Shown piece by piece: positions 11,299 to 38,737 of a DNA stretch of 64,000 nucleotides. This DNA is from Mugil cephalus (taxonomy: Eukaryota > Chordata > Actinopteri > Mugiliformes > Mugilidae), in contig NC_061787.1 of assembly GCF_022458985.1 (NCBI RefSeq), positions 419,501-483,500 on the forward strand, read 5' to 3'. A program made the position numbers and the translations under genes. Positions within the stretch are counted from its first letter, which is position 1. Every line of letters starts with the position of its first letter. The notes beneath the pieces were generated by a model. It worked only from the letters and a program-made list of their open reading frames with translations, searched no databases and had not been told where the DNA came from.

Positions 11299-11401
11299 CA
11301 CTTTCCTCTCAGCACACAAACACAACTGGTGACAAAACGAGAGCCGAGAGCGACACTCAATGCTGCTGTTCAGCCGAGAGCAGCTCGAGTGGTCTGAACA
11401 C

Positions 11402-11476
11402 AATGGCTGGAGGAGGGAGTGGAGGAGGGGGGGTGGGGGAGGAGGGGGGAAGAGGGGGGAGGGAGGGAGGCACAGG
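11402..11476 (+). promoter_or_regulatory. G-rich tract with G-quadruplex potential upstream of frrs1
   Basis: Many runs of three to seven G separated by one to three bases, about 100-180 bp upstream of the frrs1 ATG (11298). The G-rich strand is the template of frrs1 transcription. It satisfies the simple four-run G-quadruplex pattern several times. A role in the frrs1 promoter or leader is inferred from position only. Confidence 0.55.
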
Positions 11477-12787
11477 TCGGACACTGGCAGGTTCCTACGG
11501 GGGTTTAAACACAGACAGACCAGCGTCTGTTTTGTGTCACTCTGGGTTGTGTTTGTGTGATGAGATGAGAGACGGTTTCTCTGGTGAGCGGAGCCTTTAA
11601 ATCTCTTTGTAAAGTCTTAACAGGCACAGATGAGGAAAAATAATAGAACCACTTAGTGTTTTATTACTACCTGGATTAGTCATGAATTACAGTAAAAACA
11701 CATGTTTATAAAACATATGAAGACACTCAGTGACTATTGTCTGGATAAATGAGTATTAATCATTTACTGACACTATGTGGCCTCATGAATCGCTGGTAAC
11801 TGAAATAAATCCCTGGAAAACTGATCATTAGTAGATTAGAGCCTGAATTCTGTGTTTACTGATGCGTCATGGTGAGCAGTTATTTCAACCTCCTGAGGCC
11901 CTGTATCGTCATATTTAGGTTTGTGGAACATTATTCTGCTTCATTTGGACCTGGTGTCCTCAGAACTGGACACTAGTTGGTGTAAAAACATGACAGGGGA
12001 CGTTTCACTGGATTCAACCTGCAGCCGATCAGGGGACAAAAGTGGACAAGTTAGAAAACCTCGTTAAACTCTACAGACGAAACTTGATTATTTATGTTGA
12101 ACTAGTTTGATATGATGCAAAAAAATGTATCAAACTCTATGGATAGAAACAAACTACGACTTCACTAACTAGCACGTACTCGAATGAGGACGTTGGGACT
12201 TCATTGTTTGCTGTCCTGCTCAGATATTAAAATAAACCGTTTTTTCTACTCATCCCAAACACCTTGGAGAAATTACAACAGCTCAGTAGGTTAATGTGTT
12301 ACCATGACGCCCGTCTCCAGTTACCGTTTCCCTGTATTCACATTTCTGTCCATAACACTGAGGTGGGTCCATGACACCTGTCAGAACTGTATAATGGGAG
12401 CTGGTGTGACATTACAGGAGTTCTGGGAAAGCACACAAAGCCTCACTTTTATTCACCCGCAGTAAAACAACAGAGGGCTGAACATGTGGCCACACCTCAA
12501 CAATATCACTTTATTCCCTTTAAGGAGGGAGGCACCTCTCTCATTACCTGGTTTGTAACCTGAGCGACTGGAGTGGTGGCCAGACAGGTTTGTGCTCAGA
12601 ACGTCCGGCCACAGCAGAGCTGTCTTATCAGACTCCTCCTTACTGAGCTATGTCACTACCACCAGCCACGTTACAGCTTCCGTCCGCTTCCATCCAGACT
12701 TATAAAATAAAATAACAATAAAATCTGCTGCACAGTGCTAAACCAAAGATAAGACAATTCTAAAAAATGTAAAAGCACAAAAATCAA

Positions 12788-16710: not shown

Positions 16711-17202
16711 GTCACATTAAGACCTTTACTGTTGTTTGTTATTGATTATTCTTTTATTATTGAGTATTTTAATTTTTTGGTGGTACCTTGAAAAAGCCCA
16801 GTTAGTTTTTTTCTACCTCTCCAGCTCTTTGTGTATCTTGTTATTTTTCTATCTTTTTGTTTTATAAATTGTTTTATTTGTTGTTGCAAATAAATAAATT
16901 TCAATTCCAAACCTAGGAGACACTGCTGCACAGAGAAGCTCATTAGAAAAGTCACAAGCACAACTGCACTAAAGTCACTGTTGTATTCGTCTGTGTTGGT
17001 TTAATAAACTGTCAGCTGTAGAAATGGACTGAATGTACCGTGTTAATCAGAACTCATCAGTCTCTGTTTTCTGTTGCTTCCAGGGACCGTGTTACAGAGG
17101 AACTCCTCCACACTGATGATGCTCACATGGTAAAAGCTGTTTACACATCTGACAGAAGCAGATGTTCTCTTGGAGAATTCTTCCATTTGAAATCATGTTT
17201 CT

Positions 17203-17500
17203 GTAGTTTAGTTTAGTTTAGTTTAGTTTATTAGTTTATTGTGACGTGGACAGTCCCCATTAATCTGTACACGGTGCCAGTAAATAGGGCAGCTTTAGCT
17301 AATGTCCAGCTGTGGTCCCAGGCCAGGTGGTAAAGAGCATCCTGAAAGTGAAACACAGTACAAGATATTATCAACACAGGTTTAAATGGGGAAATAAAAC
17401 CATAGTTCAATGCAGGTCAAGCCAGAACATAAGAGACACAATAGTGCACAATTAACAAACACCACATCACAGAAAGCATGCATCAAACATGGAGGGGGCT
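17203..17500. repeat. (GTTTA)n tract and adjoining dispersed repeat
   Basis: Six or more gttta units, then a stretch beginning tagtttattgtgacgtggac that reads like an old interspersed repeat. It lies in the intron between the two leader and coding exons of the NLR gene. Confidence 0.45.
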
Positions 17501-17699
17501 ATTAGAGCCGTGCAAGCCCTTCTCCAGTCGTATCAGCACCATAATCACTGGGAGTATGTCATAATACACAAGCACAGCACAATGCATGCACCAAATACGT
17601 TTCCTAACGGCTTAGTGATGGTTAGGAAATCATCTGGAGAAGGACTAGTGTAACCAAAGCCCGTGTGAACTCATGTAGTGTTTCTGCTTTACCTCTCAG

Positions 17700-17816
17700 A
17701 CAGATGGAAGTCTAGAAGATGGAGGACGACGGGGACAGAGTGAGCTGGTCGCTGAGTCGCTGGTTCAAACGTTTTAATCCAGACATCAGTAAAAAACCTG
17801 CACCCTCAGACACAGG
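17700..17816 (+). CDS. NLR gene exon with start codon
   Basis: Acceptor tttacctctcag at 17699. The first ATG (17704) reads Met-Glu-Val-stop; the second at 17719 opens the coding frame ([19 protein letters not shown]) and runs 32 codons plus two bases to GTAAGA. The peptide is short, basic and Trp-rich. Its last bases and donor (CCCTCAGACACAG then G/C and GTAAGA) are nearly the same as those of the linker exon at 27391-27483, suggesting duplication of this segment. Confidence 0.7.
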
Positions 17817-20800
17817 GTAAGAGAACTACCGTAACCTGACCCGAAGGAACATGAACATTGTTTGCTCAGTGGTTCACAGTGACAGGAAGCTGAGGTGCTG
17901 GTCTAGATCAGGACCAGGAGTCCAAGCTGAACCAGTGAAGGACATAATCAGCTCTGTTTTACGGAAGACTTTCACCGTGAAGTCTCTGTAGGCTGCAGTG
18001 AGTTTGTATCAGTTCAATAAGACAGACAGAAACTTAGGAAAAGAAGTTCAACTGTGTCAGAGAAAGCTGGAGAGTTGAAATCAAAGAAAGTGAATTCAAA
18101 TGTTGATATTTGTCACCAGCAATGTGCAAATGATTTTAGTGATGCAGAAATGTGTTGACAGAGAGAGGAAGAGGAGTCCTGTTTCTGTGGAGGAGCAGCC
18201 GTCCTGCTGTGCTTTGTGTCAGGACGTCCTGAAGGATCCAGTCTCTACCAGCTGTGGACACTGGTTCTGCAGACAGTGCATTACCTCATACTGGGACCAG
18301 TCTGCTTCATCAGGACACTCCTCCTGTCCCCAGTGTGGAAAAAGACCCAGGACAAGTAAGACTGTCCATCTGTCTGCTGACTCTTCTGGAAACCTCCAGA
18401 TCAAAGAATGTATAATATACGTGAAACTTCTCCTCTAAAGTGAAGCCAAAGCTAGTAGAGCTCCCCCTGGTGTCTGGCTGCAGTATAGGTCATAAGCTCC
18501 ACCCCCTCCATGTTAGTGGGTGGGGCTCGGGACAAACTAAAACACTAAAATACATAACAAATATTTCTTTTCAAAGATGGTTTCACTCATTTCATGTAGT
18601 TGATATAATGATGATACATTTTCAAGTGTCATTTTTTCGTTTTAATTTGTTATTTGATACTATAGAAACAGGATGTGACATAATGGTGACCACCAGTTGC
18701 CATGCCAACTTTGGCCAATGAGAGGAAGTGAGACAAGTTGTCCATATTTATACAGATACATCGTTACATTCTACATCATAGGAATTTAAGATCATTACAA
18801 ACATCATTACAAATGAAAGAACATCAAACATTCCATTGCATTGTTACACAACAGTGGTTTGAAGAGCATCCATATATTAGTATTAGAGCTGTCAGTAGAT
18901 TACCTGCATGATTTCCTCTGTTCACACTGACGGTTAATGCAAATACCCTGATTTCACAAACTATAGTTGGGCTGAGGTCATAATAATCGAACGTAGGTGC
19001 ATTAATCACATGTAAAATTTCTTTTAACACTGTTAAAAAGAGAATGCATTCATTTGTTTTTAAATGATGGTCACATTGTGCATGACTTCATAGGTGGATC
19101 GGTATTAAATATTCCCAGTGAGCTGTAAGATGAAGCCCAGTCTGCTGCCTCTGCTGTTAATCAAACACTTAGACCCCAGTGGCTTTAAAAAAAGAACAGT
19201 ATTTATAATGTTTTACCCCCAAAATGTGCTTGATATACACTATGGGTCTAAAGTTCTAGACCAGCATCAGTCTCCTCTGGTATAGTTGGTCAGAGCTTCA
19301 TCCTACAGCAACATAATGACCCAAACCTTTAGTCCGAGCTCTACCAGAACTACCTCAGGATAAAAACCAGATGGAAAGCTTGAAACCATGGAGGGACCAC
19401 GTCCCAGTCTCTAGACTTTAGCCCCATGGAGCTGGTTTCAGAAGAGTGAAATCAAAGCTCCCTACAAGAGACAGGAACTCTCTGGAAAATATCTTATTTC
19501 CATTTTAAAAAGAAAGAACGTCACAAGTGTGTTCACATCAGACAAAGATGAGGTCAAAGTTTAGAATAGATTCTGGGTTAAATATTGATTCCATGATTTT
19601 CATTTCAGAGTAAAATGAGACTTTAAACTACATACATTTCAATAAAAAGAAATAAATATTGGAGTATTCTCTTTACAAAACATTTAAAGTCACTTTTCAT
19701 TTTTTTTTTTTTGCCTTAATGTTTGTTCTTCTTTCCAGATGATGTTGATCTGCAGGAGGTTTTAGATGAACATAAGATCAGTCTGAGGAGGAGATGTGAA
19801 CATGTGACTGAAGGAACTGATGTAAGAGGAAGAGGAACCCTCCTCAACAGGATCTACACTGAGCTCTACATCACAGAGGGACAGAGAGAGGAGGTTAATA
19901 CCCAACATGAGGTGATGATGAAGATGAAGGCCCTCCATGACACTCCAATCAGGTGCCACGACATCTTTAAAGCCTTACCTGACCAACAGAGACACATCAG
20001 ACTGGTTCTGACCTACGGCGTCGCTGGTGTTGGAAAAACCTTCTCAGTGCAGAAGTTCACTCTGGACTGGGCAGAGGGTTTGGAAAACCAAGATGTCAGT
20101 GTGGTGATCGTGCTTTCGTTCAGGGAGCTGAACTTGATCAAAGATGAGCAGTACAGTCTTCTCAGGCTGCTCCATGTTTTCCATCCAACATTACAGAAGG
20201 TCACAGCAGAGCAGCTGGCTGTCTGTAAACTTTTGTTCATCTTTGACGGCCTGGATGAAAGCAGACTTTCACTGGACTTTAACAACAGTGAGGTTGTGTC
20301 TGATGTCACACAGAAGGCATCAGTCAACGTACTGCTGACAAACCTCATCAAGGGGAACCTGCTTCCCTCGGCTCTGGTCTGGATCACTTCCAGACCTGCA
20401 GCAGCCAATCAGATCCCTCCTACATGTGTTGACAGGGTAACAGAACTACGAGGCTTCACTGACGCCCAGAAGGAGGAGTACTTCAGGAAGAGGTTCAGTG
20501 ATGAAGAGGTGTCCAGCAGAATCATCTCCCACATCAAGACCTCCAGGAGCCTCCACATCCTGTGTGCAGTCCCAGTCTTCTGCTGGATCACTGCTACAGT
20601 TCTGGAGCACATGTTGACTACAGAGCAGAGAGGAGAGCTGCCCAAGACCCTGACTGACATGTACTCACACTTTGTGGTGGTTCAGACAAAGAGGAAGAAG
20701 AACAAGTACCATGAGGGACATGAGACGAGTCCACAGGAGCTGATGGAGGCTGACAGGGAAGTTCTTCTTTAAGCTGGGGAGGCTGGCGTTTGAACATCTG

Positions 20801-23800
20801 GAGGAAGGAAACATCATGTTCTACCAAGAAGACCTGGAGCGCTGTGGTCTGGATGTGACAGAGGCCTCAGTGTACTCAGGAGTTTGTACAGAGATCTTCA
20901 AAAGAGAGAGTGTGATCTTCCAGAAATCAGTCTACTGCTTTGTTCATCTGAGCATTCAGGAGTTTCTGGCTGCAGTCTACATGTTCCACTGTTACGCCAA
21001 CAAGAAGACAGAGTTACTGAAGAACTTCCTGGGGAGAGACCACCAGGTCTCTGCTAAGTCTCTGGATATCTTTCTATGTGGAGCCATGAAGAAATCTCTG
21101 CTCAGTAAAAATGGTCACCTGGACCTGTTAGTTCGCTTCCTTCATGGCCTCTCTCTGGAGTCCAACCAGAGACTCTTAGGAGGTCTGCTGGGTCAGACAG
21201 AGAACCGTCCAGGAATCATCCAGAGAACCATCAACAACCTGAAGAAGATGAACACTGATAACATGTCTCCTGACAGAAGCATCAACGTTTTCCACTGTCT
21301 GATGGAGATGAACGACCTCTCAGTTCATCAGGAGATCCAAGAGTTCCTGACGTCAGAGAACAGATCAGAGAAGGAACTCTCTGAGATCCACTGCTCAGCT
21401 CTGGCCTATATGCTGCAGATGTCAGAGGAGGTTCTGGATGAGTTGGACCTGGATCAGTACAATACATCAATGAAAGGACAACGGAGACTGATCCCAGCTG
21501 TGAGGAACTGCAGAAAGGCTCAGTGAGTCCTTCAGTAGAAAGCAACACAACACTTAGTATATTCTTTACACCCTCATGTCAACACTACTCTCTTGCCAGA
21601 TTGACCTTTTTGACTGAAGGTGGAAGAACTCAGTAGCCACAAGTATAACAGGGTCAAAAAACATCTTGTTATACATACACAAAATCTGTTGTACTATCAA
21701 AGTGTGTCTTTACTTGGCTATTGTTTTTTGTGTATGCCTTTCTTTTAATCATCATTGTTAAATATGTTTCTGCCTTACCACACAAAGAGTTGAATATGCG
21801 TTTATTGCTAGAGGAACTAGCATAAAAGTCACTATATGACTGTGCATAAGTTATTCACATAGGACCATTAGTAGGCATCTGAATTAAATGGTAGTTTGTC
21901 TTGTTGTTATTTAAATGTGTCAGTGGCTAGAATAAGTAGAGATCGCCTCCCAGATCTTTTTGAAAGCTGAATATGAGGAGAACTGTCAGTGACACAGAAC
22001 ACGCATCCAAATCACAAATTTATGGGGTGGCAAAATCTCTGGATGAAAACATTTGACATATTAGGATCAATGTGTGTATGGGTTGTTCTGAAATTATTTG
22101 TGTTTTGAGTGACAAAAACCTGCTGACCTGTGTTTGTTTTCTAATCACAGACTAACTGGATGTGGACTCTCAGAGACTCACTGTAAAGTTGTGGCCTCAG
22201 CTCTGAAGTCCAACCCTTCCTACCTGAGAGAACTGGACCTGAGTGGAAATGAGCTGCAGGATTCAGGAGTGAAGCATCTGTCTGCAGGACTGGAGAGTCC
22301 AAACTGTAGACTGGAGACTCTGAGGTCAGTTCACTGACTGGAGCTGTTGTGAGTTTTATTTATCCAGTTCAAATCATTGATGTGATAATCGTTCAGTATT
22401 GCCATTAACACAAACCTGAACATGTTTTTTTAAGTGTTCTTCCAAAGGCCTGAGCTTTGGTTCCAAATAGAAGAGGAAGGTACAGAGCAATGAAATGCAG
22501 TTTAGCATCTAACCAGAAGTGCAAAAAGCACAAGTACGTGTAGCATAAACAGTATGAGATTTTTAGTTTGTCACTTTAAATCACTTTAAATATGAGGTTA
22601 AACACAGGCTCAAACATCACAACGAATTAGGATTCAGGGTGAGGAGGTGAAGATAACTATGTTAACGTATCTACAAAGGCCTGACAAACGTTTGTGCACC
22701 ACCAATAACATCAATATAAACTAATTCTGATTGTTAAATGGTACCCAACCCCAATATATCCTAAGAGACAGTCATTCTACAGCGGCACCATCTCCACTAC
22801 CACTTTCACCAGAGGAAGAGCAAAATGACTGCAAACACAGAGACAGGAAGACATACAGAGACCCTTAGAAAAAGATTTTCATTTCATCGCTTTTAAAAAC
22901 ATGAGGTCAAACACAGACCCAAACATCACAACCAAGCAGGATTCAGGGTGAGCATGTCAAACAGAAGCCGATGAAGAGACAGGACTCGGTTGGAATGACT
23001 GCAGAAAGATGGCAGGTGAGACCAGGGTCTGTGATTTAGTTTCTGTTCCTGAACAAATCACATCATTCCAATAACCACTCTGTCTCTAACAAAAGCCTCT
23101 GGTATCGCCACCCAATCCTGGTGTCACAAACATAACCATAATCATCTCATAAACTTAATTCAAGACTTTTATCTGCATCTTTTATTCTTCATTCAGATTG
23201 ATGGACAGCAGTTTGTCAGAGATCAGCTGTGATTCTCTGGTCTCAGCTCTGAAGTCCAACCCCTCCCATCTGAAACATCTGGACCTGAGCTACAACAACA
23301 AGCTGAAGGATTCAGGAGTGAAGCAGCTGTGTGGTTTTCTGGAGAGTCCAGACTGTAGACTGGAGACTCTGAGGTCAGACTCCATGTTTTCTTTGTGTGC
23401 TCAGATTAATATGATGTTGAAGTTGTGCAGACATAAAGCTCATTTTATAGTGGTCGATCGCTTAAAGCCCACATCAGAAAAAACTGGAATAAAACAGAAT
23501 TCCAGCTCTGAACAGGTTGTGAAACACTGAATGAGTTCAAGCCAGAACTTTCTCTTCTACACTGACAACTTTTATTTTTCATTCAGATTGTGGCGCTGCA
23601 GTTTGTCAGAGATCAGCTGTGATTCTCTGGTCTCAGCTCTGAAGTCCAACCCCTCCCATCTGAAACATCTGGACCTGAGCTTCAATGACCTGCAGGATTC
23701 AGGAGTGAAGCAGCTGTGTGGTTTTCTGGAGAGTCCAGACTGTAGACTGGAGACTCTGAGGTCAGTGCACTGACCTTTACTGTTGTAGATCTTATGACTT

Positions 23801-26800
23801 TGATCCGTGACTGAACCTCATTTATTGTCATATACTACGATCAGACATGACCACTTCCCTTATATTGTCCAGGTCTGCCTTGTGATTACTCATCAGAGAA
23901 TGGACATGAGCCTTCTGAGTAAATTGACTTGATTTACAGAATGAATATTGTAACAACACAGACTATTGTTGTTTAATCTACAGGATAAAATTGTGCAAAA
24001 AGTTGCCTTACTATTTTAAGTAGATGGCGCTCCGTATTTTTATTAGTGCATGACCGACTTACAGCTAAAACCTAGCTCCCTAGCTCTGTAAGCTAATGTT
24101 ACGTAGAGGAAAAACACATCTCTGCTTACTTTAAATTACATTCAGAGCTTTAAATTTGAATCAAGTATTTTAAAACAACTTGCCAACAATATAAAGCAAT
24201 ATAAAACGTCAAAGACCACAGTAATTCATCAACTACATCACTAACATTATCTTAAATCTTACCTTAAAGTCCAGACTGGAGCTGGTTGGTTGGTGGGATT
24301 TACCCAGAATTCATTGCATCAGGCCACGAAAATTGTGTGTTATGGGGGTCTTCATAAGAGGATTTGTTGGGCCACTTACATATTAGATTGTCAATGAAAA
24401 AAATCTAAATTACTTGTATTTTGAACAAGTGTAGACGAATTTAGAACATGATATATTGTCGAAGGAGGATATTTTCCTCCTTCAGCCCAGGATCTTTATA
24501 CCTTCTGGAAAGGATAGTCCATCTACGCACAAGTCACGAGACAATTTCTCACATTTAGGTAATTTATTTGGTTCACAGAGAATACGTATTGATTTCAGCG
24601 CTGAGACTTCAGTCAATCCACCTTAAGGGTAGAAAAACAAGCAGACACAGTGGCCTTGTTCTACCTAGGCTCTGCCCATAGAGAAGGGAGGAGCGCTGCC
24701 TCTCATGTGTCAGTGAGTTTCTATGTGTAGCCAATTAGCTTTATATGGTTTTCATCTTATGAAATGTTGGGGTGTGATGTGTCCTAGTCTGTGAGCAAGC
24801 TGCAGCAAAGCAGAAAACAACTCTTATATGGTGAGATTCTTCCCAGTGCTATACACAGGCTGAAGGCCTTTCTTAACCCCTTAAAACCCAACAAAATTCA
24901 TGTCAAGAGAAAAACTGTTTCTTTTGTTATTATCACAGGATTAATTAGGTTATTTTTTCAGTGTGAGATCTTGGGTTCAGATGCATGTGTTTGAGCTTCC
25001 TGTTGTTTCTTCATCATTCAGTCACATTTGATTTGGAGGAAAACCTCCTCTGATCCATGTATCGGTCCACACATAGATACACTCTGTGATTAGGACACAG
25101 CTGATTACAGTTTTGACTATTTTATCTGCATCTTTTATTTGTTGTTCAGGTTGATGGACTGCAGTTCATCAAAGATCAGCTGTGATTCTCTGGTCTCAGC
25201 TCTGAAGTCCAACCCCTCCCATCTGAAACATCTGGACCTGAGCTACAACAACAACCTGAAGGATTCAGGAGTGAAGCAGCTGTGTGGTTTCCTTCAGAGT
25301 CCAGACTGTAGACTGGAGACTCTGAGGTCAGTTCACTGACTCTTACTGTTCTGATTATCAACTGAATCTAATTCATGTTCATTAACAGCTTAAAGGCTGT
25401 TAGGACACAGTGAAGTTGAGCTGCACATTTAAAACCTGAACACATCTGATGGAATTATTCATGATTTAATCTGGATCTTTTGTATTTTGCTCAGACTGGT
25501 TTACTGCAGTTTGTCAGAGATCAGCTGTGATTCTCTGGGACCAGCTCTGAAGTCCAACCCCTCCCATCTGAAACATCTGGACCTGACATTCAACAACCTG
25601 AAGGATTCAGGAGTGAAGCAGCTGTGTGGTTTTCTGGAGAGTCCAGACTGTAGACTGGAGACTCTGAGGTCAGTCTCCATGTTTTCTTTGTGTGCTGAGA
25701 TGAATATGATGTTAAAGTTGTGGTGACATCAGGCTGATATTCTACTGACCAACAAGGAGGATCTTCAGGATGTTTTCTTCTTCTGTGGTTTACTCTGTTG
25801 ACTGGGGCAGAATCATGTTGATGATCCAAATTTAAACCTTATTAGAAGAAGGAAAATCCTCCTCAGGATAATTCACACTGACACACTTGATATTCTGTCA
25901 TGATATGTGAATGTTTTCTTTGTGTTTTCTCTTTTGAAAGTTTCTTCCATGGTGTTTTGCTTCTTGCTTAACTTCCTGTGTTTTCCCTCCTCGAGTTTCA
26001 CCCTCATTAGTGAAATAAATTCTGGTTTAATTAAATATTTTTTCAGGTAGCGCCATAAAGTGCATGAAAACACAGGTAGTTCAAAAAGACAGACCTTGGG
26101 AATCCAGATGGAATCACTGGGATACTGTTGAGTTACCTGCCTATTCATGTCCAGAGTCTTCAGATAATTTCTTCTAGATTCGTCCTGACATTTGGAGACT
26201 TTAGGAATAGTGGAATCAGGGATGGATTAGTCTGTAGGACGTGGAAGAGTCTTTACTGATGCAGCAGCGTCTCGTCATGAAACACTGAAAGATTTGTCTT
26301 CTAACCTGAGAACCTTTGCTCTCTCTGTTCAGATTGTTTCAGTGCAGTTTGTCAGAGATCAGCTGTGATTCTCTGGTCTCAGCTCTCAAGTCCAACCCCT
26401 CCCATCTGAAACTTCTGGACCTGAGAGAAAACCAGATTCAGGATTCAGGAGTGAGGCAGCTGTTGCACCTGGTGGAGAGTCCAGACTGTAGACTGGAGAC
26501 TCTGAGGTCAGTTCACTTATATTTAGTTTGAGGTGTGTCACCATCCTCTGAACCACAGCTACTGGAATGACCTCTCACCTCACAATGTTTTATTTCCTCA
26601 ACTCCTAATATTGTGTTTTTTCTGTAAAAGGATGATGATCCACAATAACAGAAGGTTTTAGATTCAGAGATTTAGATTCAGATTCAGATTTAAACAGGAA
26701 TTTCAGGGCTTATCATGTTATCATATATATTTACATGTTATTTCAGAGGTAGTATAGGTAATAAAACTAAGAATTAATTTAAAAAAAGGTGCTTGTGGTA

Positions 26801-29044
26801 AAACGTCACTCTACTGCTCCACTGTTTCTAACTGATTTAAACTATACTTTTCTTTTTCAGACTGTTTCAGTGCAGGTTGTCAGAGATCAGCTCTGATTCT
26901 CTGGTCTCAGCTCGGAGATCCAACCCCTCCCGGCCGAGAGATTTGGAGCTGAGAGGAAAGGAGGTGCAGGGTTCAGGAGACATTCAGGAGAGGCCACTCT
27001 GTAGTCTGACTCTGAGGTCAGTTCACAGCCAGGAATTATTTTCAGGTCTGGTGTTTGCATTTAGAAACCAACTTTAATAAAGTTAGCATGACACCTAAAA
27101 AACATAGACACACAAAATAACTTTTTAGAGCCCTTCAACATCCACGACAAACTCATGTCAGTCACCCACATCAGCAGCTCCCATTGGCTCACTGGTGTTG
27201 TCTCAAAACCGAGATCAGATCGACACGGGACCCGACTAGTCCATGTTGTCAGATACTTTTTTACCAAACGTTCAGCTCGCAAAAGCCAAAACACCAATCC
27301 CTTTTGCTTTAAAGTGTAAAAATGTACCCTTGAATACGTCTGTGTTTTCTTGCTTTTAACAGCTACTTGAAAACATATTTGCTTTTGCAGAGGTCAGCAC
27401 CACAGACAGAGAGCAGAGTCCGTGACCGGGTGCTTGGCCATGGAAGGCGGCTGGTCTGAAGAACCTGGACCCTCAGACACAGCGTAAGACACTGAAGGAT
27501 TTCCAGTCATAATGCAGACCTGTAAACAAACACTGGTTTCATTCCTGTAGCAACACTTCTCCACCTCTGTGGGAGAATTTTAGACATTAGCACCTTTTCA
27601 AACTGGCCTACGCCTTTAACTTCTCTTTATTTTTTAACATTTAACTAGTTTGTGCACCTACACTAAAATAATGAAGGCAAACTTTGAGCTCAAGGGTCCA
27701 TTTACTATATATTGAATGACATATATTGAATAAGTTGACTTGGGACATGTATCTATTAAATAAGCTGCTCTTTGTCTCCCAAACAGAAAATACCCATGTG
27801 ATGGAGGCCCTGGTCTGGAGGAGGCTGATAGTTCTCCTGTAGCTGTGGACCCACCAGCCCCCTCTGACCTCCAGAGTGGACCAGGCTGCAGCAGCGCCTC
27901 CTTCATGCGACCTGCAAGCTGCCCTGAGAACTTAAGAAGCAGCTTTGAGGAGTTTCTACCTGACATCACTGCGGATGAAGACGAAGAGACGTTCACGTTT
28001 CGGTGCTCGTTTCCAGGTCTGTACCGGTGCAGAGAGACCGGTCTGCTGTTTGACATGAAGGGAGGGGGGGACGTGGTTTACAGTCTGGTCCCCTGGAGCA
28101 GGAAGCTCCTGGCCCAGCATCACAAGAAGCCTGCAGGACCCCTGTTTGACATCAAATGTCTGAAGCAGTCCATGCGCCAGCTTCATCTCCCACACTGTGA
28201 GATCCGCTCCACGGGGGGGGGGCGCCACCTGTCAGTGGCTCACGTCAACGACGAGGGCGTGGAGTTCATCCGGCCTCGTCAGGTAACGGAAACTCATGTT
28301 ATCATCAGCATCACAGGCTTCTCAGGTTTTGGTAACGTCAAGGATGAAGACTCCCCCCCGGACCCGGTCCAAGCCTTGGTTCTGCTCTTCTACACCCCCC
28401 CTCACCCCCCTGACGTCATATCCTTCCTCAAAGTGCTGCTGCTTCCAAGAAACATCGTGCTCCGTGATTTGCTGCGCACCAGGAAGAAACTAGTTAAAGA
28501 AGAGAGATACATAGACGCCCCCCCGCACTGCAAGCTGCACCCAAAGCAGCTCTACACTCTGTCCACGGCTCCTGAGGACGACCTGGTCAAAGTTCAACCC
28601 ACAGAAATAGAATTCGATGACGAGTCCTATGACAGCTACTTCACATCGTCCCAGGTGATTTTAAAAAGCGTCCTCAGAGACATCTCCCTGAGCCTGAAGG
28701 AGGCGACCAGCTCTCAGCCTGTTTGGGAAAGAGACGTTTGTCTTTTTCCAGAGAGACCGAAGACTCTGACTCTTCCTCCGGACGAGAAGCTGCTGGACGT
28801 ACGGAGAGGCTTCATCGACAGGGTGTCAGTGCCGGTCCTCGACAGCCTCGTGGACAAGCTGTTTGAGGGGAAAGTGCTGAGCGATTCTGAGAGGGAGTCG
28901 GTGAAAGAGAAGCAGAGCAGACGGGACAGAGCTGGCTTCGTGATCGACACGGTGAGGAGGAAGGGCCCCGCGGCCAGCGCAGAGATGATCGACTTCCTCC
29001 ACCAGGCCGACCTGTACCTCTGCAAACAGCTGGAGCTCAACTGA
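17719..29044 (+). CDS. NLRP1-like sensor: RING-FISNA-NACHT-LRR-FIIND-CARD, one frameshift
   Basis: Cytosolic inflammasome-type receptor. Exons: 17719-17816, 18162-18355, 19739-21522, 22151-22324, 23197-23373, 23587-23760, 25150-25326, 25495-25668, 26333-26506, 26861-27016, 27391-27483, 27787-29044. Every junction is phase-compatible. The sum is 4633 bases, one more than a multiple of three, because the NACHT exon has an extra T at about 20768-20770. As written, translation stops at 20772 after 441 residues (RING plus FISNA-NACHT); without the extra base it would be about 1543 residues. Domain order from NACHT onward matches NLRP1 of other fish, while a RING at the front is unusual. In mammals NLRP1 cuts itself in the FIIND, and degradation of the N-terminal part frees the UPA-CARD fragment to recruit caspase-1. 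It could be a true pseudogene, a null allele or an assembly error. Confidence 0.85.
18162..18355 (+). CDS. RING finger exon of the NLR gene
   Basis: Encodes a C3HC4 RING with spacing C-x2-C-x11-C-x-H-x2-C-x2-C-x15-C-x2-C (residues 49, 52, 64, 66, 69, 72, 88 and 91 of the predicted protein). It is close to TRIM-type RINGs: [18 protein letters not shown]. All eight zinc ligands are present, so ubiquitin-ligase activity is plausible. It enters in phase 2 and leaves in phase 1 (ACAA then GTAAGA), exactly matching exon 1 and the FISNA-NACHT exon. The acceptor could be 18161 or 18119; both keep frame. A single poorly placed exon might belong elsewhere, but the double phase match argues it belongs here. 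Confidence 0.75.
18437..18755 (+). mobile_element. Short TIR element (MITE-like), copy 3, near full length
   Basis: It contains gtgaagccaaagctagtaga, gctccccctggtgtctggct, ctccaccccctccatgttag, and the 3' block atagaaacaggatgtgacat. It ends gacaagttgtccatatttat, the shared terminal repeat. It starts 80 bp after the RING exon donor. Confidence 0.8.
19225..19500 (+). mobile_element. Degraded Tc1/mariner-like transposase fragment
   Basis: With several frameshifts, one strand reads in pieces like QHNDP, LYQNYLR and [10 protein letters not shown], the order found near the last acidic catalytic residue of Tc1-like fish transposases. It lies in the intron before the NACHT exon and is not functional. 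Confidence 0.55.
19739..21522 (+). CDS. FISNA-NACHT exon of the NLR gene (frameshifted)
   Basis: The single large exon typical of fish NLRs, about 594 codons. FISNA comes first ([14 protein letters not shown]). The Walker A motif is GVAGVGKT (residues 191-198), the Walker B motif [10 protein letters not shown] (262-271), with GKLLPSA-like [20 protein letters not shown] and [11 protein letters not shown] following. The frame breaks at GTTCTTCTTTAAG: a TAA at 20770-20772 ends it. One base less restores [15 protein letters not shown] and the winged-helix/HD2 part ([35 protein letters not shown]), which stays open to the donor at 21523. Acceptor ttcttctttccag. No other stop was seen in either half. 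Confidence 0.9.
20764..20772 (+). pseudogene. Single-base frameshift and premature stop in NACHT exon
   Basis: CTTCTTTAA shifts the frame between the NACHT and winged-helix segments. Upstream and downstream halves are both well preserved, so the change is recent, is an allele, or is a sequencing error in a T run. Confidence 0.8.
21530..22130. other. NLR intron, nothing recognised
   Basis: AT-rich intron between the NACHT exon and the first LRR exon; no repeat or coding exon was identified. Confidence 0.5.
22151..22324 (+). CDS. NLR LRR exon 1
   Basis: 174 bp. It follows NACHT in phase 2 and reads [20 protein letters not shown], then [20 protein letters not shown]. Donor CTGAG then GTCAGT, as in all exons of the series. 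This copy is the most different from the others and keeps the two-repeat ribonuclease-inhibitor LRR pattern. Confidence 0.88.
22590..22960. repeat. Intronic partial duplication
   Basis: A block of about 65 bp at 22588-22650 (atgaggttaaacacaggctc) recurs about 310 bp later at 22895-22955 with scattered changes (atgaggtcaaacacagaccc). It lies in the first LRR intron. Confidence 0.6.
23197..23373 (+). CDS. NLR LRR exon 2
   Basis: 177 bp, one codon longer than the 174-bp type (YNNKLKDSG). Contains [20 protein letters not shown] and [15 protein letters not shown]. Phase 2 in and out. The donor is GTCAGA instead of GTCAGT. Confidence 0.88.
23587..23760 (+). CDS. NLR LRR exon 3
   Basis: 174 bp; begins [16 protein letters not shown], then [19 protein letters not shown]. 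It is nearly identical at the base level to exon 2, with only 213 bp between the two, indicating recent tandem duplication. Confidence 0.88.
23800..25140. other. NLR intron between LRR exons 3 and 4
   Basis: About 1.4 kb with no exon recognised. A 67-codon open frame at 24791-24994 shows no domain. Confidence 0.5.
25150..25326 (+). CDS. NLR LRR exon 4
   Basis: 177 bp; begins [16 protein letters not shown] and carries [18 protein letters not shown]. It shares the extra codon with exon 2 and is probably its duplicate. Acceptor ttgttcag. Confidence 0.88.
25495..25668 (+). CDS. NLR LRR exon 5
   Basis: 174 bp; begins [20 protein letters not shown] and carries [18 protein letters not shown]. Only 168 bp separate it from exon 4. 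Confidence 0.88.
25700..26330. other. NLR intron between LRR exons 5 and 6
   Basis: No coding exon or clear repeat was recognised in this 0.66-kb intron. Confidence 0.5.
26333..26506 (+). CDS. NLR LRR exon 6
   Basis: 174 bp; [20 protein letters not shown], then [20 protein letters not shown]. The second repeat has drifted more than in exons 2-5. Confidence 0.87.
26861..27016 (+). CDS. NLR LRR exon 7, degenerate
   Basis: 156 bp, 18 bp shorter than the standard unit but still in frame. [20 protein letters not shown] is followed by [17 protein letters not shown], where key leucines are lost, and then a shortened end (LCSLTLR). It keeps the acceptor and the CTGAG/GTCAGT donor. It looks like a decaying repeat that may no longer fold as LRR. 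Confidence 0.75.
27391..27483 (+). CDS. NLR linker exon before FIIND, with internal strong-context ATG
   Basis: 93 bp, open in the required phase (30 codons plus two bases), acceptor gcttttgcag, donor GTAAGA. It links the LRRs to FIIND. It holds an ATG at 27440 in an excellent context (ttggccATGG), from which 433 in-frame codons run to the CARD stop. It could serve as a second start for a FIIND-CARD protein. Confidence 0.65.
27787..29044 (+). CDS. FIIND (ZU5-UPA) and CARD exon of the NLR gene
   Basis: One 418-codon exon with acceptor ttgtctcccaaacag and TGA at 29042. After a Pro/Ser-rich lead come the ZU5 part ([18 protein letters not shown]), the UPA part ([20 protein letters not shown]), and the CARD ([20 protein letters not shown] onward to the C-terminus). 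The self-cleavage residues are present: His in SVAHVNDEG (28241-28243) and Phe-Ser in ITGFSGFG (28319-28324), 26 residues apart, as between His1186 and Phe1212 in human NLRP1. Self-cleavage is therefore expected. It is GC-richer than its neighbours and includes a run of ten G at about 28213-28222. Confidence 0.92.
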
Positions 29045-29420
29045 CCCCAAACAGAGAACTGGAGAAACGGTGGTTAAAGAGAAACCTGATATTTGGCAGC
29101 TTGTTTAATTCTTCTACTGAGATATAAAATACACTTTTCATAATTACACTCACAACTGTTCCTTTGTAAAAATCATCATTGTCATAAGTAGATGTCTAAA
29201 AGTATCAGTAATGGGATGTCGGCCTTGAACTGGGATTATATCAAGTTCATTTAACAGAACTTTTGCACATTTCTCTTCAGCAAGATGTTGCAGCTTTCAG
29301 CAAATATCTGAGTCCTAAAAGAGATGAATGAATTTCATATTAGTCTCCACTTCATCTCTTTGTGTCATTTTCAGCATCGCATGACTAATGTTCTTAAAGG
29401 TCATGTCAATACTTGGGGTG

Positions 29421-29426
29421 AATAAA
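29421..29426 (+). terminator. Polyadenylation signal of the NLR gene
   Basis: AATAAA 377 bp after the stop codon, followed within 30 bp by a T-rich stretch (gatttttctttttgtacctg). It is the first canonical signal downstream. Confidence 0.65.
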
Positions 29427-29429
29427 GTG

Positions 29430-30180
29430 ATTTTTCTTTTTGTACCTGTTCTGACTCCATCTGAAAACAGTTTGTTCGTTCATCAGGCAGCAGAGGGCGC
29501 TGTTGGCTTGGTAACGGCCACAGAGTCAGAGCTTCATTTAATAATTATACACTAGAAATAAACTAATTAAACCGATCAGTTTGTAAGAGCACTTTAAAGA
29601 GAGCTGCGTTTCATCTAAAGTTTAATAATCCTGTGGTGTAAACCAGCTGATCAGCCACAACATTATGACCACGTTTGAACATCTTGTGACATTTCATTGT
29701 TCTTCTGGGAAACGTTTGGACCTGGTCTTCAATCAACTGTCCTTCCATATTACTGCAGCTCATCATTTATTTATTTATAGATTTGAAAGAATTTGTATTT
29801 TTTGTAGATTTGTGCATATACAATTATTATTATTATTATTATTTAGTTTTGTTTTTACGACCGATTTCCAACAAGATTTTTTTGTTATGTTTTATGTGCA
29901 TCTACTACTGTCACTAAGGAATTTCGCTTAAGTCTAAAACTGTGCTTTAATTTTGGAGGGAATGTAGATAAATTGTCCGTCGATATTATTGAACCTCATT
30001 CATTCTTCCTATGAATATTTATTTATTATTTTTACTAACGTATTCTTTGCACTATATAGATATTTTTATGATATTTTTATTCATTTATTTTTTATTTTTA
30101 CAAGCCGTTTCCTATAATGTTTCAAGTGTCGAGTCCTGAATCTATAAAAAGTGCTTTTATTTTAGAGGGAAGTTAAACCG
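29430..30180. other. Intergenic spacer, NLR gene to nebl
   Basis: AT-rich. It includes gctgatcagccacaacattatgacc (start at 29646), a phrase common in fish repeats; a related catatgaccac-type piece lies at about 37970. A short (ATT)n run is at 29822. No gene was seen. Confidence 0.55.
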
Positions 30181-30444
30181 TCCCCGTCTTCCTGCGCCCT
30201 AAATGCCGCTAACTTACTCTCATGGAGTGATCGGTCCCGGCGCAGCATCCAGCCTCAGACCGGACGGTGCTCCGCTGAGCGTCAACACAGGACTCTCTCT
30301 CTGTCTCTGTCTCTGTCTCTGTCTCTGTCAGTTTTCACATCGTCTCAGGTGGACAGACTGCGTGGACAGACTGCGTGGAGCTTTCTTTACAGCGTCACGT
30401 CCCGGATAACAAGTGGAATCTAATCCAAGCAGAGGAGCTGGAGG
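30180..30444 (+). promoter_or_regulatory. nebl (LIM form) promoter and leader region
   Basis: A local switch from AT-rich to CpG-containing sequence, with a (CTCTGT)n pyrimidine run at 30293-30329 just before the coding exon. Upstream ATGs at 30203 and 30222 have stops at 30409 and at the third codon, respectively, so they would form small upstream frames if included. The transcription start cannot be fixed from sequence. Confidence 0.45.
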
Positions 30445-30513
30445 ATGAACCCACCGTGCGCCCGCTGTGGGAAGATCGTCTATCCGACGGAGAAAGTCAG
30501 CTGCCTGGACAAG
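30445..30513 (+). CDS. nebl: nebl exon 1 (LIM first half)
   Basis: 23 codons, [20 protein letters not shown] to AAG, phase 0, donor GTGGGC. Start context is gaggATGA with a purine at -3. It supplies the first Cys pair of the LIM domain. Confidence 0.9.
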
Positions 30514-30944
30514 GTGGGCACTTTTATTTGTGGACAGGTAGACGAGACACGTGGGAGACTGATTCACCTGTTTGAACCTTCACATGAGCGAGTTTAGAGT
30601 TGTTAGAGAAACTCTGTGTTTATGAGCAAGAACAGAGACGGATCCCAACTGATGAGGATCCTAAACATCCATCCTCCTCACATCAATCAGTTTTATCTGA
30701 AAAATCTAACCTGAAGCTGCTGCGGTTTGAAGGATTAGTGTCAGCAGGTTGTATGTTGTGTTGTAGAAGTTTTATTTAACACAAAAGACGAGAGTAGTGA
30801 TCATTTTATATGCGGCGCTGACGCCTCTGTAATAGCCTCTTGCATAACGGTGATAAATTATTAATTTATCTCCAGCAGCTTCGTTCACTGTCTGTCCTGA
30901 GAGGCTCCGATGACACAACAGCATGTAGGCACTGCCCACCTAAA

Positions 30945-30983
<39 letters not shown>

Positions 30984-33900
30984 ACACACAGACACACACC
31001 TGACAGGAGTTTATCATGAAAACCAATAGTAACTGGTGAAAACAGGCATTTCCCAGTGTCTCTAGGATGGTAGTGGGGTAGGATGGTAGGATGGTAGGGG
31101 GTAGTGGGATAGAGGGCTAGTGGGGTAGGATGGTAGGGGGTAGGATGGTAGTGGGGTAGGGGAGTAGGATGGTAGGATGGTAGGAGGGTAGGGCGGTAGG
31201 GAGTAGGATGGTAGGGTGGTAGTGGAGTTGGATGGTAGGGTGGTAGGGGGTAGGGGGGTAAGTAGGTAGGGGAGTAGGGTGTTAAACATAAACACAGGCA
31301 GCTCCTGTACAACTGAATGAGTGAAAAGCTACTGGACGTTAACGTCTTCTGCCTCCGTTTGTCCCTAAAATGTGTTGGATCCATGTTAACATTTACTTAA
31401 AGTGTATTTAAAGTGTATTTAAAGAATTAAATATATATATATTAATCAACCAAAGATCCTGGGCCCCCCCAGCAGTTCCTCTGTGGACGCTGATGCTCTA
31501 GGATCTACAGTGTAGATGAGCATCAGCCCAGAGGAACCAGCAGGACCAGGACCAGGACCAACCACGGAGAATTACTTTTATTAAAGTCTGAAAGCATCTT
31601 TCTGCAGAAATGTGTAAACAGGTCTAACAATCCAGGGCTGGTGTGTGACTGTGTCTCTACAGAACTGGCACAAAGGATGTTTCCACTGCGAGGTTTGCAA
31701 GATGACCCTCAACATGAAGAACTACAAAGGCTACGATAAGAAGCCGTACTGCAACGCGTGAGTCCTGACTCCCTGTGCCTCAGTGCAGCTGGAGTGTTTC
31801 CCTGTTCCACTGAAGAACTTTCTGAGTAAACACCATCCACAGGCTGCAGCTGCTGTGTTATTATCCTCGCCTGTGTTCGCTCTGCTCGTATCTCTGTGGC
31901 GACTCGCAGGTTTTTATAGCAGCGCTGGTTTTGGTGTTGGGTCGGTTTCAGTGATTCTGGTTGCGCGCCCAACCCTGTTGCACTTCCCACCGTTCACATG
32001 CTCTGCTTCTTATTATCTGTGCAGCTCAGAGCTGTGGAGGAGATGAAGTCGCAGGGTTAGACCATCACATAGTCTGAGCGATAGGAGTAAATCACAGCTT
32101 ATGGTGAAAACCTTCTTATGGAGGAGATTTGGCCACATTCGGTTCTGAGAGGAGGAGTTTTATTCCACCTGCTGAAAGAAAAACACTTTTCCATCCAGCT
32201 CAACAGACGTTTGTTTGATGCTGCAGGAAGTTAAACATTTGAGGGAGGAACTGAATAACTTATTTGTTATTTTTGCAGTTATGGCAAAATAAAAGCTTTT
32301 GTGCCTGAACAGTGAAGGGAACAAAGGCACATTTGTCCACATCCTGTTAGAAACCAGCACTAACCCGTTAGCTCTATGAACGAATACACACACACTTCTT
32401 AGTGAGGACACTCATGGCATAATGCATCCCACAGCCACAACCCCAACCAAAACCTAACGGGAACCTTCACAATAAAAGGAGTCAAACAGACGTGTAAAGA
32501 GATGAGGACCAACCTAAATGTCCTTGCTTTCCAAAAAAGACTTTACGTTGTTGGTTAGAAACTCTGATGCACAAACAAACTCACAGCGGTGGACAGTGAT
32601 AGTCTGTTAGCGGCTCAGGTTTGACGCTGTTCACACATACAAGGATTTATGTCAAAGGTGTCATTCCTCCATTCCAGTAGAACGTGGTGTTGACGGTAAC
32701 TAGCCGAGCACATGGCGATGTAGGGGACAGTTACAGCTCATAATGCTGTTGGTTAATTCAGGTCATCCACGCTCAGGAGCTAATGGCCTCAGTGAGTGTT
32801 TGTCCTGAACCCACACAGTCATGATTTCCACTTAACAGGACGGCTGTGAAAATGTGTCTGGTTTGAGGCCTGATGTTGACTTTTGTGTTGTGTCCAAAAA
32901 ATCAGAGAAGTGACCAAATGGCATATTTGAGAGTAACTGGAACAAACTCATGGTGTAATCTGAAATAAATCCAGTCACTTTGGTGAAAGGTCTGGATTGT
33001 AAAAAAAAATCCTGAGAAGCTGAAGCTTTACTTTCACTTCCTCAGTTTTTGACGTATGGTCAGAAAGTTTTCAGAGTCACTGCTCCTGCTCCGTCTTATC
33101 TGCGTCCAGCGTCAGTGTTTCTGGCTTGTTTGCTGAGCAGAGGACAGCTGCAGACTTCCTGCAGGGATTTCTTTCAGTCAGAGTTTTGCTTTTGTGCCTC
33201 GGTGTTACATGTAGCGCTCAGTGTACGAACGGGCGTCCTGTAATTAAAGAGTCTCAGCGAGGCTGCGTCTCCCTCTGGGGTTTTTGTGACACTGGTTGTT
33301 TTTAGTGTTGTATATAACTGGTGAAAGGCCCCGCGGCTCTGTTTTCCTTGCCTGTTTGTGGCATGTGTCTCCTCCGCTGGAATGACGACAGCTTCTTCTC
33401 CAGATGATTCTTAGAAACCAGCAGAGCCACAATCTGCACTTCATAACCTTATTGTAATTCTTTGGAAATGGAGTAAGAGGCGAGTTCTTTTTAATTTGAC
33501 GCCTTGCACTGAAAAGAGTCTGAAGAAGGATTCTGGCCTCTATCTAACCTGTCACTTTATGTCTGTTTTTACAAAACGATATAAGCTTCAATCGAATAAA
33601 ATACGTTAAGAGGACTTCACCACAGCGAAATGTTCCATCCACATGTGGTGCATTATCTCAAGGACTGGACTGAAGTACAGTTTCGAGGTACTTGTAGTTT
33701 TCTTGAGTGCTCTGATTATAACTCTTTATTTTTTATTTTTTGGCTCATACTTAAGGCCAGACTGAGGAAGAGACAGGGAGAGACCATGAATGTCACTGAG
33801 ATGATGGTGAAAAAATACATAAACCTCATAGATGCAAAGTCAGTGATACCAACTTGAACTAATTCCAGCTTTGGCGACTGAAGCAGGTGATTGGCTTTGG

Positions 33901-36900: not shown

Positions 36901-38737
36901 ATCGGGGAAGAAGAGAGCGACCGGAGGAAAGAAAGAACGAGGGAGAGAGGACGGAGGGATGAGAAATGGCTCTATTGAAGGCTGGCTGGGAGCGTCACGC
37001 ATGAATGAGTGAACAGAAAGACAGAGGACAGTGAAGAGGGATGAGTGGAGACAGTGTCATGGTGTTAGAAACAGTCCTCCAGTGAGATGATCCTCTGTGG
37101 CCGTTGTCTTTTCATCCGAAGCTCTGTCATGTTGGGCCGATAGAGACTCAGGAGGCTCCTCATTTCCCTTTCTTCTCTGCTCTGTTTGTGTTTTCTTTTG
37201 CTTTGTTCCTAAGTTTCCCCCTTTTCCATGTGTTTTCCCTCCCTTTCCCTCGTCTTTGCTCCTGTTTTCTTTGTCCTTTCGTCTCAGTGTGAGAAAGATG
37301 TAGTGCTAAGGCCACCAAGGACACCACGGTCTCTTGTCTCCTGGAAGACATAAAACATCACAGTTTGCTGAGTGCGACTCCCCGTGAACCAGAGACAAAG
37401 TTCCCGTCCACTCAGCAACGTCCCCTGAGCTTGTCTGACTGCAGCAGAAGCCAGAGACGGGTTTAGTCCTGTGGTCATGTCCAACTTTAAAATTTGACCT
37501 CAGGAGGAAACGTGGAGACAATCCAGCGACTGCAGAGCTGATCAGGTTGTGACATGAGTGGTAGTGGCCCAGATTTACTTTACTCTCCTCACTTCTTCAT
37601 CTCCTCTATGAGACACTGTTAAAGTCTAATCTGAGCTGCAGATCAGCCCGGCAGCCTGCTATTAAATCCTCTGTGTGATAATATCTCGTACTTAAATTAG
37701 CACAGCCTGAATTAACTCCCCTCATTTGTCACGGCCTTTTATCAGCGCTGCCACCAACAGAAAGGCATGAGAGGTGGATGTAAGCGTTAAATGCTGCCAA
37801 CGAAGGCGAAGTAATTAAACACCAGAACTTCAGCCGTGAAAGTCGGTCGTGCTCAGAGCAGCGTTTAAGGCTTTTACCCAACGTGGTCACGTCTCTATGT
37901 GACTAGTGCAGGAGTCGCACTGTGCAAAATCAGGAATATCAATACTTTAATGCACAAACAGAATGTTGCATAAGATTATGACCACACCAACTTGTGACAA
38001 CTCGTTGTTCTGCTGGGAAACTTTTGTGACCTATGTTGGTGTCGGCTCTACGGAAGAGGATCAGGGCCACTGTTAAAAACACTAAACAAAAGGGAAATTT
38101 CAGTTTTTCTTTTTACTTCTGACTTTTATTCAGACTTTTTTCTCAGCATTCAGAGATTAATCTCAGAATAAAGTCAGAATTAAAAGAATCCGCTCTAACT
38201 ACATTTTTTTGTTTTTTAATCCTCTGCTCTGTGTGTTTTCAGGAAGTTCATTTTGTTTAATGTTTTCACTTCCTGCTTCACTTTTAACAATGACGACTGT
38301 AACTTTCGCTGGTAAAGATAAGTCGTAAAAATGTTTGCATCGAACCGAACCTCCTCGGTGAACCTTTCCTCCATGTTTTCCTTCGTAATGGATCCAAAAC
38401 AATCAATCTGAAAATGGTGGCGATGGAGAAGCAGCTGGAAACACTGAAGAGGAGACCTGCTCCTATTAAGCCGACCAATCACAGCTGTGCTACTGTAGTT
38501 ATATATCTGGGGGTAACGAAAACAAATACATATCCCTGTAGTCTCAGAATATGAAGCAGTTCTGTAACTGTAGTATAACGTGCAGTAGACGCAGGATGCT
38601 GCTGGTATTTCATGGTTTTCTGTCTTGTTCCAGACCTGTCAGCAATGTTTATTACGAGCCAAGTCTATCTCGGTCCCACACTGGGATTTTCATCAACACC
38701 TAAGCAGGAAGGTGGACAGCAGCCAGGCTGACTAGCA

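Follow-up and report, generated by a model that had tools for sequence, protein, structure and literature searches.

Exon organization of the locus

We analyzed a 64,000-nucleotide stretch of the Mugil cephalus (mullet) genome, referred to below as the window, and focused on a series of exons on its + strand between positions 17719 and 29044. In order, these encode a start peptide, a C3HC4 RING finger, a FISNA-NACHT unit, seven leucine-rich repeat (LRR) exons and, at the downstream end, a FIIND-UPA-CARD unit (Table 1). A sequence-only reading of the stretch had joined all of them into one gene for an NLRP1-type sensor with a RING finger in front. Our results point instead to two neighboring genes on the same strand, which we regard as the probable arrangement. 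Gene 1 (17719 to ~27016) would belong to the mullet NLRs with a RING-FISNA-NACHT-LRR architecture, and gene 2, consisting of a short start exon (27391–27483) and the FIIND-UPA-CARD exon (27787–29044), would encode a 433-residue CARD8-like protein. We favor two genes because the FIIND-CARD part is annotated separately, because an NLR-type start exon precedes the FIIND, because the FIIND phylogeny points the same way, and because 16 of the 17 mullet RING-NLRs among the matches listed have no FIIND.

Table 1. Features of the two putative genes in the window.
Feature	Position	Strand	Remarks
RING-NLR start exon	17719–17816	+	ATG at 17719; MEDDGDRVS...KKPAPSDTG; phase 2 out
C3HC4 RING exon	18162–18355	+	Phase 2 in, 1 out; Pfam PF15227, E = 1.2e-12
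FISNA-NACHT-winged helix-HD2 exon	19739–21522	+	Pfam; tblastn of P0325 in two frames
Reading-frame break in the NACHT exon	20763–20772	+	In-frame stop at 20770–20772
LRR exon 1	22151–22324	+	Phase 2-2
LRR exon 2	23197–23373	+	Phase 2-2
LRR exon 3	23587–23760	+	Phase 2-2
LRR exon 4	25150–25326	+	Phase 2-2
LRR exon 5	25495–25668	+	Phase 2-2
LRR exon 6	26333–26506	+	Phase 2-2; terminal LRR of mullet paralogues similar by eye
LRR exon 7	26861–27016	+	Phase 2-2; shortened, degenerate
NLR N-terminal-repeat-type exon	27391–27483	+	Phase 2-2; P0121 starts at its ATG (27440); peptide ends EEPGPSDTA
FIIND(ZU5)-UPA-CARD exon with stop codon	27787–29044	+	Pfam PF13553, PF23679, PF00619; P0121 100% identical
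His167 of P0121	28241–28243	+	Aligned with H1186 of human NLRP1; His-Ser spacing 27
Phe193/Ser194, predicted FIIND self-cleavage site	28319–28324	+	Aligned with F1212/S1213 of human NLRP1

The RING exon is complete, with all eight zinc ligands present in the C3HC4 order, and its splice phases fit those of the exons on either side, just as the sequence-only reading had stated. Its identity to the RINGs of 16 mullet paralogues ranges from 85.9 to 98.0%. One feature of RING-type E3 ubiquitin ligases is a basic "linchpin" that follows the final Cys. In the window, the last Cys is followed by Gly-Lys-Arg, and Gly occupies this position in 105 of the 109 RING-bearing proteins scanned. The join of the RING to the FISNA-NACHT exon (18355/19739), which formed part of the same reading, is matched by annotated mullet paralogues; for example, residues 24–89 of P0325 align with 18160–18357 and residues 89–440 with 19738–20778.

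The NACHT exon matched FISNA (E = 4.1e-24), NACHT (7.9e-32), NOD2_WH (2.3e-20) and NLRC4_HD2 (9.8e-31) in Pfam, while LRR_6, tried on one of the LRR exons, was barely over the cut-off (23.7 vs 23.4 bits). The Pfam matches to the parts of the two putative genes are above their cut-offs; the predicted domains are not chance matches. With RING, FISNA, NACHT, winged helix, HD2 and LRR exons in order and joined as in the paralogues, gene 1 has the composition of the teleost RING-FISNA-NACHT-LRR proteins (NLRC3-like, NLR-C). Two of these from the mullet have the same exon order and are 95.3% (P0325) and 96.9% (P0326) identical to the window copy in the RING and 94.8% and 94.6% identical in FISNA-NACHT, respectively. 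The start exon resembles by eye the start of P0326 (MEQEEDRVS...), although the SMKSD motif in exon 1 of that paralogue is missing here. P0326 also carries an N-terminal unit, GQYHRQRAES...GEPGPSDT, repeated in tandem 11–12 times ahead of its RING.

An annotated start exon for the FIIND-CARD part

Between the last LRR exon and the FIIND lies an exon (27391–27483) that the sequence-only reading did not mention. It resembles the repeated N-terminal exon of mullet NLRs: tblastn of the mullet protein P0242 gave 52.5% identity over 40 residues (E = 2.6e-5), and alignment to the two P0242 units gave scores of 73 and 92, compared with maxima of 33 and 41 among 2000 shuffles each. In the sampled set, this NLR N-terminal motif is located upstream of NACHT in 99 of the 158 NACHT proteins, but just one of the 63 NACHT-FIIND proteins (P0027) has it between LRR and FIIND.

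The downstream exon gave strong Pfam matches to FIIND (E = 2e-42), UPA-FIIND (2.4e-22) and CARD (5.6e-12). A stand-alone model built from 27440–27483 and this exon is 100% identical over 100% of its length to the public M. cephalus protein P0121 (433 aa), which carries the name "NACHT, LRR and PYD domains-containing protein 1-like"; therefore, the FIIND-CARD part is publicly annotated as a gene of its own. P0121 is the same gene as the one in the window, without any difference, and it has no RING, NACHT or LRR. That the RING-NACHT gene ends in FIIND-CARD is not confirmed, given the annotated start and the NLR N-terminal-type exon that stands in between.

How closely does this protein resemble the known FIIND proteins? 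Its best match in the PDB is human CARD8 (7jkq_B, E = 8.1e-16). Both have FIIND-UPA-CARD, and the His and the Phe-Ser pair are aligned. The match leaves the sequence before the FIIND uncovered, where the mullet gene has a short peptide with the NLR-type start exon. The FIIND-UPA part also aligns with human NLRP1 (6x6c, E = 2.1e-14), in which H1186 and F1212-S1213 are the conserved counterparts of the catalytic His and the Phe-Ser pair. A FIIND with these residues, a UPA and a C-terminal CARD are thus shared with NLRP1. On the other hand, human NLRP1 is PYD-NACHT-LRR-FIIND-CARD, and at the mullet locus the annotation, the start-type exon and a break in the NACHT frame all speak against NACHT-LRR and FIIND-CARD on one polypeptide. 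A FIIND-UPA-CARD without NACHT and, by annotation, with its own start fits a CARD8-like protein.

The FIIND groups with proteins that mostly lack NACHT

The FIIND tree (FastTree, midpoint-rooted) comprised 230 FIIND-CARD regions; of 243 FIIND matches, 14 with an aligned stretch of at most ~300 residues were excluded. The window FIIND fell into a clade of 177 sequences (local support 0.98), only four of which belong to NACHT-bearing proteins. Of the 53 remaining sequences, 51 have NACHT, so that 51 of the 55 NACHT-bearing proteins in the tree lie outside the clade of the window; that is, in this tree of 230, the window FIIND does not group with the NACHT-bearing FIIND proteins. Its identity is 54.7–57.0% to the four NACHT-bearing members of its own clade and 31–38% to the other NACHT-bearing proteins, with the exception of six salmonid PYD-type proteins that reach 41–47% over shorter stretches. 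The His is kept in all 177 members of the window clade and the Ser in 171. In the other clade, these residues are found in 50 and 53 of the 53 sequences, respectively, and Leu replaces the Phe before the cut site in 51.

These comparisons drew on 120 listed matches per query, with 22, 194 and 7861 further matches for the list behind the Pfam counts of NACHT with FIIND, the stand-alone query and a 1544-residue query, respectively. For the latter two, the candidates that were scored were those sharing most words with the query, and limits on length relative to the query bias the sample (~849–2702 residues for the 1544-residue query). Pfam domains and species were counted by hand in the resulting tables.

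Among the 17 mullet RING-NLRs listed, the 16 without FIIND include all ten on a contig of the same length as that of P0121 (23,450,896), and the one with a FIIND is P0242 (2409 aa), on a contig of different length. In this protein, a NACHT-LRR-FIIND-CARD part preceded by an incomplete RING comes first, and a further NLR, whose RING is complete, comes after it. P0242 probably represents two merged genes.

The NACHT frame of gene 1 is broken

The sequence-only reading had also passed over a break in the NACHT exon. The open reading frame of 19720–20772 closes at a stop codon, and the winged helix-HD2 part resumes in another frame (20744–21526), so that no single open frame runs through to HD2. 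Accordingly, tblastn of P0325 gave 94.0% identity over 19738–20778 and 86.7% over 20756–21523, in different frames. The mullet paralogues P0325, P0326 and P0332 are unbroken at this site. Because of the break, gene 1 as assembled can encode only the start peptide, RING and FISNA-NACHT (441 residues).

Is gene 1 then a decaying pseudogene, with exon 27391 as a remnant captured from the start of another NLR and used today by the FIIND-CARD gene as its first exon? Such a history falls within the two-gene reading, with which its odds overlap, and we consider it somewhat short of an even bet. Besides the frame break, it would account for the degenerate seventh LRR exon and for the public record: among the matches listed (~849–2702 residues), there was no intact public protein for the RING-NACHT copy of the window, the highest identity being 94%. 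Such a missing counterpart would fit an upstream copy left unannotated as an intact protein, although it is no proof of it. However, a single break could be an assembly error, and relaxed selection past the break was not seen. Protein identity of this part to 16 mullet paralogues is 82.9–89.2%, compared with medians of 86.9–88.4% when three of these paralogues were compared with the others. Since the post-break part is as similar to the paralogues as they are to each other, no long decay is visible, and gene 1 would be either a recent pseudogene or the product of an assembly error.

One gene or two?

Several observations weigh against the two-gene reading. The LRR exons, exon 27391–27483 and the FIIND exon are all in phase 2, which would allow splicing from LRR to FIIND. 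The NLR N-terminal motif is present in only two of the 180 FIIND proteins without NACHT, one of them P0121, which makes its start exon unusual for its clade. Four proteins (P0022, P0024, P0025 and P0027) are annotated as fusions of NACHT with the FIIND type of the window. The tree set is skewed toward proteins without NACHT by the short stand-alone query and the length limits, and eight NACHT-bearing proteins (six salmonid PYD-type proteins, P0118 and P0119) were too short in the alignment to enter it. Finally, the public gene models are predictions.

Some of the annotated fusions may themselves be merged neighbors: P0024 and P0025 also carry B30.2 (Pfam), and P0022 has an LRR-FIIND linker that matches part of P0001, a protein without NACHT, with 50% identity over 128 columns (E = 1.3e-26). 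An AATAAA polyadenylation motif is present at 27076–27081, shortly after LRR exon 7 and ahead of exon 27391; it carries little weight, since there are ten such motifs on the + strand of 17000–31000.

The remaining explanation is a single RING-FISNA-NACHT-LRR-FIIND-CARD gene, perhaps expressed as a read-through or alternative transcript; the RING would then sit on the portion whose degradation precedes the release of UPA-CARD. The order, strand and splice phases are all compatible with it, the same architecture is predicted elsewhere (35 of the 120 matches listed), the mullet P0242 contains NACHT-LRR-FIIND-CARD, and in P0022 (Anableps) LRRs are joined to a FIIND of the window clade. Against this stand the separate annotation of P0121, the NLR-type start exon that separates the LRRs from the FIIND, a FIIND clade mostly devoid of NACHT, the broken NACHT frame, and the chance that P0025, with B30.2 beside its FIIND, and P0022, with its P0001-like linker, are merged neighbors. 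Taken together, we consider a single gene unlikely. The single-gene model was in fact built first and is open in frame save for the NACHT break; it was set aside on the annotation, the relatives, the FIIND tree and the N-terminal-type exon.

What the two-gene arrangement would mean

Both kinds of gene are already known, and the mullet locus matters chiefly as a correction: when an NLR and a FIIND-CARD gene lie side by side and their splice phases match, they are easily misread as one. By analogy with mammalian CARD8 and NLRP1, the gene 2 protein would cut itself between Phe193 and Ser194, and the two halves would stay together. Degradation of the short N-terminal half would then free UPA-CARD, which would bring in ASC or an inflammatory caspase, making the mullet FIIND-CARD protein a putative short tripwire of the CARD8 type. 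The review PMC7483925 describes such functional degradation, one case being mouse NLRP1B, which a bacterial ligase ubiquitinates directly. With two genes, the RING would have no physical link to the FIIND, and any action it has would take place in another protein, the NLR. Of the sensor proposed earlier, then, the RING before FISNA-NACHT stands, whereas its link to FIIND-CARD is opposed by the annotation, the start exon, the FIIND tree, the listed mullet relatives and the NACHT break. Judged from the sequence, a RING that marks its own sensor for degradation is not supported at this locus.

RING-bearing FIIND proteins in other fish

Could the self-marking mechanism operate in other fish? The sequence-only reading had suggested a domain search of fish NLRP1 orthologues for RING. 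NACHT and FIIND occur together in 58 of the 120 matches listed, 35 of which also have RING (P0022, P0025 and 33 entries between P0077 and P0119) and six PYD (Pfam). The full RING-FISNA-NACHT-LRR-FIIND-CARD set was found by Pfam in 18 fish species, in at least 35 listed proteins plus P0242 and P0323. Among these species, Anableps and Polymixia have a FIIND of the window clade, the tree does not include Semicossyphus, and the mullet RING before FIIND is incomplete. A pattern scan of the 51 NACHT-bearing proteins of the NACHT-rich clade found a complete eight-ligand RING in 30, a partial one in two and none in 19.

Proteins such as P0089 (Oreochromis) have the architecture that the sequence-only reading described, but the FIIND of this fusion class is mostly 31–38% identical to that of the window (P0089, 34.9%), and the clade is the one with Leu before the cut-site Ser. 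The LRR-FIIND linkers appear by eye to be related across species, and their recurrence speaks for real single genes in this class. The six salmonid NACHT-FIIND proteins (P0056, P0058, P0061, P0063, P0064 and P0072) have PYD as in human NLRP1, and all carry B30.2; the N-terminal domain seems to have been swapped between lineages. For several fish, the public models combine a CARD8-like FIIND gene with parts of an NLR or with LRRs (P0021, P0022, P0024, P0025 and P0027), hinting at recurrent adjacency or fusion of NLR and FIIND-CARD.

In the portions of PMC9978379, PMC12436146 and PMC11508797 consulted, fish NLRP1 is NACHT-LRR-FIIND-CARD, preceded in some cases by PYD or an unknown domain, and RING goes unmentioned. 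Sections of PMC10648357 describe rockfish NLRC3 genes with RING and FISNA-NACHT-LRR, some with CARD domains; because these have CARD besides FISNA, NACHT, RING and LRR, the set may include fused-class proteins whose FIIND was not named. Within excerpts from the open-licence literature (including PMC4852459, PMC2268669 and PMC7483925), we found no description of RING together with FIIND in a fish NLR, nor did the titles and opening lines of abstracts listed from that literature deal with such a pairing in fish.

It is conceivable, though we think it quite improbable, that these proteins form a teleost NLRP1 class in which RING takes the place held by PYD in human NLRP1 and the salmonid NACHT-FIIND proteins. 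With His-Leu-Ser at the expected cut, ligand sensing would lead the RING to ubiquitinate its own N-terminal half, and degradation would free UPA-CARD without an outside ligase. The mullet locus would then be a neighbor of this class, an NLR and a CARD8-like gene ready to fuse, comparable to the annotated Anableps and Polymixia fusions. Should the fusion proteins predicted in the 18 species prove real and their RING active, a sensor carrying its own NLRP1-style degradation trigger becomes testable, and the fusion class, rather than the mullet locus, is where the idea of self-degradation could be tested.

Other features of the window

On the − strand, 11119–11616 encodes a portion of a protein with a Reeler domain, of which the first 35 of 131 positions are matched (Pfam PF02014, E = 2e-6). 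In a search of the entire 64 kb, a weak NACHT-like match of 40 residues (35.0% identity, E = 0.002) was located on the + strand at 37715–37834. ARAGORN found no tRNA in the window. Two minisatellites are present, at 554–866 (15-base unit, 19.7 copies) and at 4766–5288 (11-base unit, 47.5 copies), and the long open reading frames that overlap them are probably not genes.

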